Assembly (NCBI RefSeq): GCF_001693735.1
Contig: NZ_LWDV01000009.1
Location: forward strand, 493,753-557,752
DNA from: Orenia metallireducens
GTDB taxonomy: Bacteria; Bacillota; Halanaerobiia; Halobacteroidales; Halobacteroidaceae
Direction of reading: 5' to 3'
DNA length: 64,000 nucleotides
Shown here piece by piece: positions 6,441 to 14,258 of this stretch. The number at the start of each line of letters is the position of its first letter. The first letter of the stretch is position 1. The notes beneath the pieces are model-generated. The model ran no database searches. It was not told where the DNA came from and was given only the letters and a program-made list of their open reading frames with translations. The position numbers were made by a program, and so were the translations under genes.

Positions 6441-6836
6441 TTTAACCTCCTTTAAAGTTTATTATCTATTAATTTAGATTATATATTTTAAATACCTCTT
6501 AATCAAACCTTACTTAGTTAAACAAAGTATATAAATGGCGAAGTAATATATTTTTTGTTAATCACTCACACCTATTTATCTAATACATATTATGTGAATG
6601 GAGTGGGTAAAGAAAAGTAATCCTCTTATTTATTAACATAAATAGAATTATATTCTTCACAGATTTAAAGTCAAGTTCATACTATAATAACAAATAATCG
6701 CAAAAAATCAATGATTAATCACTGCTAATCTAAATTAACAACATTTAATGTTAAAATAGCTATATTTTAGATGTACCACTTGGGTAGTTCTCTGAATATT
6801 ATAAGCTATCAACTTTAATATGAAAGGGGATTATCT
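6441..6836. other. Intergenic leader region of the surface-protein locus
   Basis: About 400 AT-rich bases without a convincing gene. It holds the candidate sigma-K promoter at 6659-6686 and about 140 bases of untranslated leader before the gene at 6837. A short ATG frame near 6598 lacks a ribosome binding site. Confidence 0.5.
6659..6686 (+). promoter_or_regulatory. Sigma-K-like promoter
   Basis: AC at 6659-6660, 17 bases, then CATACTATA at 6678-6686. This matches the Bacillus sigma-K consensus AC-N16/17-CATANNNTA exactly. Sigma-K directs late mother-cell transcription of spore coat and outer-layer genes. It lies about 150 bases upstream of the cysteine-rich protein gene at 6837. The motif is short and A/T-heavy, so a chance match is possible. 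Confidence 0.45.
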
Positions 6837-7904
6837 ATGGATTTTACTACCTTGGTTGATGTGACTATTGAGTTATTTAATATGGACAATAGGCAATTAG
6901 GAGAGCTACAAGATTTTTTACATAATTTAATAGGAAATAAATTAAGAAAGGAGGTAAAATTTCTAATGGATGAAAAGTTAGTTAAGAATAAGAAAGTTGA
7001 ATTAGATTTATCAGATCAAGAAACAGATATTGTTGATTTAACAGAAGATAATTACATTGCAAATCTAACTAAAGTAGATAATTTAACTGAACAGGTTAGG
7101 CAGATACTTGAAGATAATGAAATTATGAATAAGATAGATATTGAAAATATCATTGAGGAAAAACTAAATAACCCTGCAATAACAGATGAATTAAAAGAAT
7201 TAAAGATAGAAGTTAAGGCACTAAAAGAAGAACTACTAAACCAACAAGAATCTATTATTGAAATTGCCCTTAAGAAAATACAAAAAGAGAATCCTTTGAA
7301 AGGAGGTGAAGAAAATATGGCTGATGAGAAAGTAATACTTCAACAAATTGATTGTGAATGTCCTGGCTGTCCAGAAGGATGCCCTGACGAAATTGGTGAT
7401 TTAGAGTTGTGTCAAGAACTTGAAACTATAGAATTCTGTTGCACTTTAGTAATTCCAGATGGTTTCTCAGCTCCAGTAGAACCTTTAACTGTAGCGAATG
7501 TAGCAGAGTATATTGAAGAGAACTTTGACTTGGCTGCTTACTTTGATGAAGACTGTTTTGAATGTACTCCTTTAGAATGTAGGATTAACACTACTTTTGG
7601 AGATATAGCTGTAACTGAAATCTTGATTAAAGGTTGTATTAAGTTTATAGGTGGTATTTGTGTAGCTAGTGATTCGGCACCTGAGACTGGTTCTCAAGCT
7701 CCTGTATGTTGTGAAGGTACTATTTGTGTCCCTGAGCCTACTGCTGTATGCTTTGGAGGCGTTGATGCTAGTTGTGAAAACCTTAGAGTAGTTGATGTTG
7801 ATAATGTAGAAGCAACTAGAGTAGGACTTAGCTGTGGAGATGCTGTTTGGAATGTAACTGGTGAACTTGTATTTGCTTGCGGCCCTTGTGTAGCAAATTC
7901 TTAA
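6837..7904 (+). CDS. Cysteine-rich surface-type protein with nested starts
   Basis: One open frame of 355 codons with three ATG starts, each behind a strong ribosome site. ATG 6837 follows GAAAGGGGA; ATG 6966 (residue 44) follows AAAGGAGGT at 6947-6955; ATG 7317 (residue 161) follows AAAGGAGGTG at 7299-7308. Residues 1-160 are acidic and helical, coiled-coil-like near 120-155. Residues 161-355 form a cysteine-rich domain with about 20 cysteines beginning CECPGCPEGCPDEIGD. That domain is nearly identical to the N-terminal part of the next gene, whose start matches residue 161 here. There is no signal peptide or membrane segment, as in spore coat and exosporium proteins built in the mother cell. 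No known family is recognised. Products of 355, 312 and 195 residues are all plausible. Confidence 0.75.
   Translation: MDFTTLVDVTIELFNMDNRQLGELQDFLHNLIGNKLRKEVKFLMDEKLVKNKKVELDLSDQETDIVDLTEDNYIANLTKVDNLTEQVRQILEDNEIMNKIDIENIIEEKLNNPAITDELKELKIEVKALKEELLNQQESIIEIALKKIQKENPLKGGEENMADEKVILQQIDCECPGCPEGCPDEIGDLELCQELETIEFCCTLVIPDGFSAPVEPLTVANVAEYIEENFDLAAYFDEDCFECTPLECRINTTFGDIAVTEILIKGCIKFIGGICVASDSAPETGSQAPVCCEGTICVPEPTAVCFGGVDASCENLRVVDVDNVEATRVGLSCGDAVWNVTGELVFACGPCVANS
7317..7904 (+). CDS. Internal-start product: cysteine-rich domain alone
   Basis: An alternative 195-residue product starting at the in-frame ATG 7317. The ribosome site AAAGGAGGTG at ideal spacing, and alignment of MADEKVILQQ with the start MTEDRLIIQQ of the paralogue at 7972, support it as a real and perhaps the main start. 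It contains the cysteine-rich domain only. Listed separately because a single-gene annotation would hide it. Confidence 0.6.
   Translation: MADEKVILQQIDCECPGCPEGCPDEIGDLELCQELETIEFCCTLVIPDGFSAPVEPLTVANVAEYIEENFDLAAYFDEDCFECTPLECRINTTFGDIAVTEILIKGCIKFIGGICVASDSAPETGSQAPVCCEGTICVPEPTAVCFGGVDASCENLRVVDVDNVEATRVGLSCGDAVWNVTGELVFACGPCVANS
7353..7881 (+). repeat. Direct repeat, copy 1
   Basis: About 529 bases nearly identical to 8005-8530, including many synonymous positions. The main differences lie near 7555-7610 and one codon near 7760. This indicates recent duplication or gene conversion of the cysteine-rich domain. Confidence 0.9.
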
Positions 7905-7911
7905 TAATTTT

Positions 7912-7940
7912 AAAAGTGTGGGGAATTTCCCACACTTTTA
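7912..7940 (+). terminator. Terminator between the duplicated genes
   Basis: AAAAGTGTGGG and CCCACACTTTT arms around a 6-base loop, followed by ATTTTA. It lies between the two cysteine-rich genes. No convincing promoter is seen in the 30 bases that follow, so the second gene may depend on read-through. Confidence 0.8.
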
Positions 7941-7971
7941 TTTTAAAAATATAATAAGGAGGTAAGATGAA

Positions 7972-9171
7972 ATGACAGAGGATAGATTAATAATTCAACA
8001 AGAATGTGAATGTCCTGGCTGTCCAGAAGGATGCCCTGACGAAATTGGTGATTTAGAGTTGTGTCAAGAACTTGAAACTATAGAATTCTGTTGTACTTTA
8101 GTAATTCCAGATGGTTTCTCAGCTCCAGTAGAACCTTTAACTGTAGCGAATGTAGCAGAGTATATTGAAGAAAACTTTGACTTGGCTGCTTATTTTGATG
8201 AAGATTGCATTGAATGTACTGAACAGATATGTAGAATTGATACAGGTTTTGGAGATATAGCTATAACTGAAATCTTGATTGAAGGTTGTATTAAATTTAT
8301 AGGTGGTATTTGTGTAGCTAGTGATTCGGCACCTGAGACTGGTTCTCAAGCTCCTGTATGCTGTGAAGGTACTATCTGTATCCCTGAGCCTACTGCTGTA
8401 TGCTTTGGGCTAAATGCTAGTTGTGAAAACCTTAGAGTAGTTGATGTTGATAATGTAGAAGCAACTAGAGTAGGACTTAGCTGTGGAGATGCTGTTTGGA
8501 ATGTAACTGGTGAACTTGTATTTGCTTGCGCTCCATGTCCAGTTACTACAACAACTACAACGTCTACTACTACTTCTACAACAACTACTAGTACAACATC
8601 TACTACAACTACTACAACTACTACAACTACTACAACTACTACAACTACTACAACTACTACTTCTACAACTAGTACTACTTCAACTACTACTGCAGCCCCT
8701 GATAGAGTATGTTTCTGTCAAGTAACTACGGCTCCTGGAGCAACAATTGATGAATGTGATGTTATTATTGGAGATGGTTGCCCATGTGATTGTAGTTTGC
8801 AAGTAGAGGTCTGTACAGGTTGTATGGTTAATGGTAGTCAAATCGAATATGAAGAAGGAGACAATTCTCTTATATATCAACAAGTAGGAGGTAGTCCTTT
8901 TAATGTAGGAGAGTTATGTTCAGTAACCTGTCCAACTGATGATACAGCAGAGATTAGAGGATTAGGAGAGTGGAATGGTGAGTTATGTAACTTCCTTATA
9001 ACTTTAACTGAAGTTCCTGAGGAAGATGATGAAGGGACTATAACAATCTACTGTCCTGGAGAATCTTGTCCTGGTAACTTTGATGAAGAAGATATAGTTT
9101 ATCAAGCAGAATTTGAATTCGCAGGAAATTCAGTAAATATTAATCCCCAGCCTTGTGGAGCTCAAGGATAA
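7972..9171 (+). CDS. Cysteine-rich protein with Thr/Ser tract
   Basis: A 399-residue protein in three parts. Residues 1-190 are a cysteine-rich domain almost identical to residues 161-355 of the previous gene. Residues 192-240 are a pure Thr/Ser tract, mucin-like and a likely target for O-glycosylation. Residues 241-399 are a second cysteine-rich, acidic domain (CFCQVTTAPG, GCPCDCSLQVEVCTGC, ending NPQPCGAQG). The start ATG 7972 follows AAGGAGGTAAGATGAA. There is no signal peptide or membrane segment. Three glycosyltransferase-like genes follow directly. By analogy with exosporium glycoproteins such as BclA (same principle, no sequence relation seen), I infer a disulfide-linked spore-surface glycoprotein. 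No known family recognised. Confidence 0.75.
   Translation: MTEDRLIIQQECECPGCPEGCPDEIGDLELCQELETIEFCCTLVIPDGFSAPVEPLTVANVAEYIEENFDLAAYFDEDCIECTEQICRIDTGFGDIAITEILIEGCIKFIGGICVASDSAPETGSQAPVCCEGTICIPEPTAVCFGLNASCENLRVVDVDNVEATRVGLSCGDAVWNVTGELVFACAPCPVTTTTTTSTTTSTTTTSTTSTTTTTTTTTTTTTTTTTTTTSTTSTTSTTTAAPDRVCFCQVTTAPGATIDECDVIIGDGCPCDCSLQVEVCTGCMVNGSQIEYEEGDNSLIYQQVGGSPFNVGELCSVTCPTDDTAEIRGLGEWNGELCNFLITLTEVPEEDDEGTITIYCPGESCPGNFDEEDIVYQAEFEFAGNSVNINPQPCGAQG
8005..8530 (+). repeat. Direct repeat, copy 2
   Basis: Second copy of the cysteine-rich domain DNA at 7353-7881, one codon shorter. Confidence 0.9.
8601..8660 (+). repeat. 9-base tandem repeat encoding Thr
   Basis: About 6.7 copies of ACTACAACT, uninterrupted, inside the Thr/Ser tract. 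The unit is a multiple of three, so copy-number change would alter tract length but keep the frame. Confidence 0.85.
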
Positions 9172-12848: not shown

Positions 12849-13544
12849 ATGGATATTAAAAAGATAAAAAATTATGACATTGATTTAAATCCAGTTGGAA
12901 AAGGAAATTATTCAGAGGTTTTCTTGGCTAAAGATCTCAATCAACAAAGCACAGTTGCCATCAAAGTTTCATCTTGTATTGATATGTCTAAATATGAAGC
13001 TACTGTGATGAAAAACTATGGTTCCCATCCTCTTTTTCCCAAATTCTATGATTTTTTTATAATAGAAGATAAAGCTTATATTGTAATGGAATACTTTCCT
13101 GGAAAAGGGATTGGACATTGGAATTATCATTCCACCATAGATATAGGGAGGAAGAATGAACAAGAAGCGATTTCAATTACTTTAAAAGTATTACAAGGAT
13201 TAGAACACCTTCATCAGATAGGTTTTGCTCATCATGATCTATTGCCAAAAAATATATTATTTAGGGATGAAATCCCTGCCAAAATAAAAATAATTGATTT
13301 TGGTTTAGCAAAAGAATTAAATTATGAAAAGAATCATAAGTATAAAGTTGGTGATATATCTGCAGCAGCAACGCTGTGTATTTATTTAATTAATGGAGTT
13401 GTTTCTAAAATACCACTTGATGATTTAAAAACAATATCTAGTGATTTAAGAGAAGTGTTATCTAAAGCCTTTGAACCTAATTTAGGAAAACGATATCAAT
13501 CTGCAACAGAATTTATTAAAGTTATACAACCTTTAGTCCACTAA
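12849..13544 (+). CDS. Hanks-type Ser/Thr protein kinase
   Basis: A compact kinase of 231 residues, shorter than the usual 260-residue domain and without membrane or sensor domain. Catalytic parts are all present: glycine loop GKGNYSEV (17-24), ATP lysine K39 in VAIK, helix-C glutamate near E50, HHD (128-130, in place of HRD) with N135, and DFG (150-152). The activation segment is short and has no clear APE. A strong ribosome site (GGGAGGTG) precedes ATG 12849. A decayed copy follows 23 bases later. Next to the Thr-rich protein and glycosyltransferases, it may phosphorylate a surface or coat component; this is inference. Confidence 0.8.
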   Translation: MDIKKIKNYDIDLNPVGKGNYSEVFLAKDLNQQSTVAIKVSSCIDMSKYEATVMKNYGSHPLFPKFYDFFIIEDKAYIVMEYFPGKGIGHWNYHSTIDIGRKNEQEAISITLKVLQGLEHLHQIGFAHHDLLPKNILFRDEIPAKIKIIDFGLAKELNYEKNHKYKVGDISAAATLCIYLINGVVSKIPLDDLKTISSDLREVLSKAFEPNLGKRYQSATEFIKVIQPLVH

Positions 13545-13567: not shown

Positions 13568-14258
13568 ATGGAAACAAAACGGTTAAAAAATTATGAAATT
13601 AAGACAAAACCTATTGGTAGAGGACAGTTTGCTTATGTCTGTTGGGGTAGAGATCTTAATCAGCAACGTGAAGTGGCTATTAAATCATCATCTCATTTTA
13701 ATACCTCTAAAAAAGAAGCAACTGTAATGGAAAGTTACGGAAGTCATCCTTTCTTACCTGAATTTTATGATTTTTTATAATAGAAGATAGAGCTTATATT
13801 GTAATGGAATATTTTCCTGGTGAAACTCTTGGTCCTTCTAATCATAATAAAGCTGGGAAAAAGAGAAGTGAAGAAGAAGCAATTTTGATTACTTTTAATT
13901 TATTACAAGGATTACAACGTATTCATCAAATAGGATTTGCTCATAATGATATTTTGCCAAAAATATATTAATTATGGATGATAACCCCAATAAAATAAAA
14001 CTGATTGATTTTGGATTAGCAAGACCCCTAGATTCTAAAAGATATGAAAAATATAGATACAAAGATTTATATTTGATAGCGTTAACTTGCCTTTACCTTA
14101 TTAAAGGTCCTCTATCAGAGAGACCAATAAATGATTTGGATATTGTAAAAAATAATAACCTAAAAGATATCTTATATAAAGGTATTCACCCTAATTTGGA
14201 AAAGAGATATCATTCTGTAGATGAATTTATTGAGGATTTAAAACCTTTAGTTAAATAA
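13568..14258 (+). pseudogene. Second Ser/Thr kinase, two frameshifts
   Basis: Tandem paralogue of the kinase at 12849, with its own ribosome site (AAGGAGGTG). The frame breaks at T6 (13771-13776), where the intact copy has T7, giving a stop at 13778. It breaks again at A5 (13959-13963), where the intact copy has A6, giving a stop at 13968. With both bases restored the protein would be about 230 residues with glycine loop GRGQFAYV, VAIK, HND (for HRD) and DFG all present. Each break is a one-base loss in a homopolymer, so it may be a young pseudogene, a sequencing error or slippage-controlled expression. Residual frames are 13568-13780, about 13781-13963, and up to 14258. Confidence 0.75.

Follow-up and report, generated by a model that had tools for sequence, protein, structure and literature searches.

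Internal in-frame translation starts in bacteria usually come to light by ribosome profiling, and their conservation and function are often doubtful. The inner spore coat of Bacillus subtilis provides the closest described arrangement: the safA mRNA directs synthesis of full-length SafA and, by internal initiation at Met161/164, of C30 (PMC6490927, PMC6282716). C30 itself has no localisation signals, and it is full-length SafA that recruits it (PMC6490927, PMC6282716). Bacterial N-terminal proteoform pairs arise likewise from alternative in-frame starts, the alternative site often having the stronger ribosome site (SD) (PMC11005335). Proteins of the CryBP1 family (PF07029) have been described as short stand-alone polypeptides, like the 19.6 kDa product of ORF1 in the cry18Aa operon (PMC5371835) and a protein of 176 aa from Lysinibacillus sphaericus (PMC5467902). 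In Paenibacillus popilliae the cry18Aa operon is transcribed by SigE/SigK, according to Zhang et al. 1998 as cited in PMC5371835. The gene presented below, as judged from its sequence and that of its relatives, very probably yields its protein in a long, a middle and a short version, all from a single message.

Layout of the gene and strength of its ribosome sites

The gene lies in the window, the whole stretch of 64,000 nucleotides that was analysed, from Orenia metallireducens, a salt-loving spore-former. The open reading frame at 6837-7904 (+) is 355 codons long, and three ATGs share its frame, at codons 1, 44 and 161 (6837, 6966 and 7317). As the first-pass annotation had noted, no stop lies between them, and the frame stays open to 7904. 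Its parts and immediate surroundings are the following.

6567..6593, +, possible second promoter of the SigK-like type, CACACC...CATATTAT, weaker, on the left border of the upstream stretch that is conserved in the sister species G001
6658..6686, +, SigK-like promoter CACA-N16-CATACTATA, conserved in G001
6822..6830, +, SD1 GAAAGGGGA, of ordinary strength (duplex energy, dG -11.8)
6837..7904, +, nested gene, predicted long isoform L of 355 aa (ORF reading, alignment to relatives)
6837..6965, +, N-terminal helical module of 43 aa, in the long isoform only (alignment A7, dN/dS, AF2 with low pLDDT)
6945..6955, +, SD2 AGAAAGGAGGT, 10 nt before ATG 6966 (anti-SD match; duplex energy, dG -17.0)
6966..7904, +, predicted middle isoform M of 312 aa, from start 2 at codon 44 (conserved start and SD)
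6966..7316, +, acidic helical linker, fast evolving (dN/dS 0.275; AF2 helix 117-151, low pLDDT)
7298..7309, +, SD3 GAAAGGAGGTGA (anti-SD match; duplex energy, dG -21.5)
7317..7904, +, predicted short isoform S of 195 aa, CryBP1-like Cys-rich beta domain (PF07029 profile homology; AF2)
7911..7940, +, terminator- or attenuator-like hairpin between the nested gene and the paralogue, -18.0 kcal/mol (folding)
7972..9171, +, stand-alone paralogue with the Cys-rich domain from start 3, a Thr-rich linker and a second Cys-rich domain (ORF reading, alignment)

The 3' end of the 16S rRNA located in the same genome reads GGATCACCTCCTTTCTAAGG, so the anti-SD is the usual one. The background for comparison comprised 1243 internal in-frame ATGs in 321 ORFs of at least 150 aa, from 464 kb, made up of the window and a further 400 kb of its contig. 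The SD matches at 6966 and 7317, 11 and 12 nt long, are the longest of this set, the next best having 9 nt, which bears out the first-pass view of strong internal sites. ORF 6837-7904 is alone among the 321 in carrying two independent internal SDs of at least 8 nt. Predicted duplex energies are -11.8, -17.0 and -21.5 kcal/mol at 6837, 6966 and 7317, respectively; for comparison, internal ATGs have their 5th percentile at -8.8 and the best gene starts a median of -11.5. The SD energy of start 3 is the strongest among all internal ATGs and is reached by 0.3% of the best gene starts. Its GGAGGT is separated from ATG 7317 by 9 nt and the site, when translated in the gene's own frame, encodes K-G-G-E. 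RNA folding around the SDs gave no structure above that of shuffles and hence no sign of an mRNA switch. Annotation pipelines will settle on a single start in such a gene and miss what is probably its main product, the short form.

Relatives and the origin of the nesting

Ten nested loci related by descent, from the same family or order, were compared: the window, G001, G003, three copies in G005 (L040, L023 and L004), G006, G007, G009 and G011. The full-length search gave, besides G001, a single further homologue, the L004 copy. A profile of the N-terminus alone gave weak matches (E 0.07-0.2) in G003 and G005 which proved to be true relatives, and a four-sequence profile gave clear members in G005, G006, G007, G009 and G011. 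Other weak matches of the N-terminal profile (L013-L022, L024-L026 and L028-L030) are, as far as inspected, unrelated coiled-coil or chance matches. The contig scan with the window's own Cys-rich domain gave no match, and profile A8 later picked up Natroniella; the plasmid search gave 0 matches.

In G001 the whole gene is 71% identical and keeps all three starts with their SDs. Starts are found at codons 1, 44 and 137 in G003 (another genus, about 29% identity) and at codons 1, 45 and 144 in G005 L040 (a third genus), each preceded by an SD, and at codons 1, 77 and 109 in Natroniella sulfidigena (G006). Among the other copies of G005, L023 has starts at codons 1 and 74 and a weak TTG as a degenerate start 2, while L004 has a different 33-codon leader followed in frame by start 3. 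Natroniella acetigena (G007), G009 and G011 have two starts each, without start 2; in N. acetigena the letters of the middle SD are still present and the ATG is gone. Start 2 and its SD thus stand at codon 44, 44, 44 and 45 in the window, G001, G003 and L040, and a first start and start 3 are present in all remaining nested loci, down to ~20% protein identity. Start 2 appears less important than start 3, because it is missing or degenerate in several relatives. The last start is in frame in 10 of 10 loci, with no stop ahead of it and a linker that varies in length and sequence, and the energy order SD1<SD2<SD3 holds in all five loci that have three ATG starts. The first-pass annotation had asked whether orthologues would lack the internal sites; they retain them, which speaks for its isoform reading.

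The extensions of G009 L037 and G011 L058, from a neighbouring family, open with a different module, M(T)xDNVxxYFxAExDSE, similar between the two, and a strong internal SD is present there as well. This module is either very diverged or independently acquired. The CryBP1 pair is absent from the syntenic site of two genomes from Orenia's own family, one of which also belongs to its genus (G002, L085; G004, L088), where a methionine-gamma-lyase-like gene directly adjoins a small membrane-protein gene; the nested gene is thus dispensable.

Start 3 aligns with the start of the adjacent paralogue at 7972, which is 88% identical, a coincidence already seen in the first-pass annotation. The paralogues at 7972, L003:2656, L041:1516 and L036:1444 begin exactly at start 3, and this is the sole start of the stand-alone copies in the window (7972), in its G001 counterpart and in members from G007 and G011. 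The sequence 5' of the G007 copy (L041), GAAAAGAGTAGGTTGACC, is a decayed form of its neighbour's start-1 site, GAAAGGAGTAGGTTGATG, from which it follows that this copy lost start 1 and kept start 3. In G046 and G436, more distant genomes with the full-length gene, the copies are unnested. As CryBP1 proteins outside the order are reported to be stand-alone and those of G046 and G436 are unnested, start 3 is probably the ancestral one, and the extension a later addition upstream of it.

The second Cys-rich domain (C-x-C-Q-V-T...CTGC...) occurs in the window (7972-9171), L003:2656-3861, L036, L034 and L064:6441-7097. In several paralogues it follows a linker that is Thr-rich, Gly/Asn-rich or short, and in Natroniella it is found separately from CryBP1; it matched no Pfam family. 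A two-codon mini-ORF, ATG AAA TGA (7967-7975), forms an ATGA overlap with the paralogue start at ATG 7972.

Selection on the extension and on the ribosome sites

Comparison of the window with G001 gave dN/dS values of 0.07 in codons 1-43, 0.275 in codons 44-160 and 0.31 in codons 161-355, codons 1-43 being the most strongly protein-constrained segment of the gene. The values of the module and the linker indicate that the extension is real protein. The module is homologous in seven loci (alignment A7), AF2 places helices in it and in the linker at low pLDDT, and no known targeting domain matched it in Pfam and NCBIfam scans. The internal starts could conceivably adjust expression level only, by re-initiation or ribosome loading, with isoforms that have no separate roles. 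The short form is indeed predicted to dominate from SD strength and the N-terminus has no known function, but the strong constraint on its 43 residues and their recurrence in seven loci point to a job for the extended form, and this explanation appears unlikely.

SD3 reads GGAGGTGA in 10 of 10 nested genes and encodes in frame K-G-G-E/D, or T-G-G-D in L004. The conserved K-G-G-E/D peptide is thus what the ribosome site spells when it is translated. The opposite reading is that only the full-length protein is made and that KGG(E/D) is a double-glycine-type cleavage or linker motif with the SD letters as a by-product, and KGG(E/D) is the sole conserved peptide within the linker region of the nested genes. 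However, the Gly-Gly pair is written GGA GGT in 10 of 10 cases, where codon usage predicts 15% per pair. Synonymous recoding of the linker end reached this SD strength in 0.2-8% of the trials at each locus, with a combined Fisher P of about 1e-7 over 9 loci, an optimistic value that treats related loci as independent; for SD2 and SD3 jointly P was 0.000-0.008 in four loci. SD2 lies in another reading frame than SD3 and keeps AGGAGG (GGGAGG in G001), while the residues that it encodes differ (KEV in the window, REV in G001, EEV in G003 and KEE in G005 L040). Every KGG site is followed by an ATG at SD spacing, and in the stand-alone paralogues this sequence serves as the sole SD, with the KGG peptide untranslated. 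Codon choice favours the SD beyond the protein's requirement, and the processing motif is a highly improbable explanation.

A fusion of three cistrons by stop loss, with the internal sites as fossils and the fusion as the only product, is most improbable: the coincidence of start 3 with the start of the stand-alone paralogue does indicate a separate ancestor of the C-terminal part, but fossil SDs would decay, whereas these are kept across genera at about 20-30% protein identity, the internal SDs are stronger than that of start 1, and in none of the relatives found are the modules encoded by separate cistrons.

Nested translation is thus the reading that the comparative evidence strongly supports. 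The first-pass annotation had combined two proposals, and their fates differ. Isoforms with and without a helical extension are best supported by the sequence comparisons, while the operon of three genes with missing stops, along with its fossil sites, is rejected because the extension is under protein selection (dN/dS 0.07 in codons 1-43) and the linker is open in all ten loci.

Expression, protein family and comparison with known systems

A SigK-like motif, CAC(A)-N-CATA(C/T/G)TAT, is found 70-226 nt 5' of start 1 in 8 of the 10 nested genes, where 0.002 are expected per 400 nt, and is absent upstream in the other two. Its tight form (CACA-N16-CATACTATA) occurs twice in 464 kb, both strands counted. 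Late mother-cell expression is likely from this conserved promoter motif, which agrees with the sporulation setting proposed in the first-pass annotation. No copy of the motif turned up in the interval from start 1 to the last start of the nested loci, which gives no reason to assume a second transcript from within the gene; the short forms should therefore arise by translation. The ~270 nt 5' of start 1 (6562-6836) are well conserved in G001, which exceeds what a promoter alone needs.

Hairpins like that at 7911-7940 are found in G001, also between the two genes, and in G005 L004. The one in the window stands only about 30 nt from the next start. It may act as an attenuator between subunits needed in unequal amounts. 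Pfam scans of five nearby ORFs downstream of the pair, to 13.5 kb, identified glycosyltransferases, DUF7164 and a kinase, and no crystal-toxin gene was seen among them. The G046 homologue is near a Coat F protein gene. The paralogue at 7972-9171 has a long Thr-rich linker, and such linkers are common in glycosylated spore-surface proteins. A second Ser/Thr kinase gene (13568-14258), split into three ORFs, adjoins the intact one (12849-13544) and has the appearance of a duplicate in decay.

The nested protein itself gave no PF07029 match in Pfam at E<=1, and the Orenia metallireducens genome gave none at E<=0.01. With profile A5, PF07029 members are reached at significant E-values, and they in turn match the Pfam model at 1e-11 to 1e-84; comparison of profiles A3 and A8 gave E 8e-8 and a probability of 94%. 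Through these profile steps the Cys-rich domain is assigned to the CryBP1 (PF07029) superfamily. Its AF2 model has an all-beta core (pLDDT 75, pTM 0.63) without a credible match in the PDB (Foldseek best E 0.07, TM<0.25; VIA best Z 3.1), and the fold search fared no better with the full-length model (pLDDT 61). A relationship to Ena / DUF3992 endospore appendage subunits may exist but found no support: Pfam scans gave no DUF3992 match, and Foldseek and VIA found no good match to anything for the pLDDT-75 model.

Taken together, it is probable that a single SigK-type mRNA with three graded in-frame starts gives isoforms of a CryBP1-superfamily spore-surface protein. The use of the starts and the isoform ratio are inferred from the sites. 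One late mother-cell message would be translated with SD strength rising from start to start, yielding a scarce 355-aa form, a middle 312-aa form and an abundant 195-aa form, the last being only the Cys-rich and probably disulfide-linked building block. The extension would have grown upstream with the original start kept inside the gene. By analogy, the products may be located at the spore, where the N-terminal helical module and the acidic linker would most likely tether the short form or nucleate its assembly, in a ratio set by the fixed start strengths. A stoichiometry ladder, in which rising SDs determine how much of the anchor, spacer-bearing and bulk subunits is made relative to one another and the layout is selected order-wide while the protein diverges to ~20% identity, is put forward tentatively, as a possibility somewhat short of even. 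If it is true, the ratio of subunits in a self-assembling spore-surface layer is set by three starts in one frame.

By its sequence the gene fits the class of internal starts, with in-frame ATGs and SDs, no stop between them and sites conserved beyond protein constraint. Like N-terminal proteoform pairs, it is one gene with alternative in-frame starts; unlike them, it has three graded starts in an order of strength conserved over several genera. The nested sites outlast the protein sequence, so that evolutionary evidence here precedes evidence of expression, and the gene offers a clean and testable example of a defined N-terminal isoform set for structural assembly. With CryBP1/ORF1 (PF07029) it shares a homologous Cys-rich beta domain, recognized in relatives (E down to 1e-84), and a sporulation context, but the known members are short and stand-alone, some beside crystal-protein genes, while the nested gene has an extension and nested starts. 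The locus thereby gives this poorly understood family a context in spore assembly.

SafA/C30 is paralleled here in an unrelated coat protein: like safA, the nested gene would be a mother-cell spore-coat gene in which an in-frame internal start gives a C-terminal short form behind an extension of ~160 residues. The SafA extension carries localisation signals. Pfam and NCBIfam scans found neither LysM nor the SafA family in the nested gene. SafA has two starts, while the nested gene has three, with strong SDs conserved across genera and a Cys-rich CryBP1-like domain. The nested gene resembles SafA in arrangement, not in sequence.
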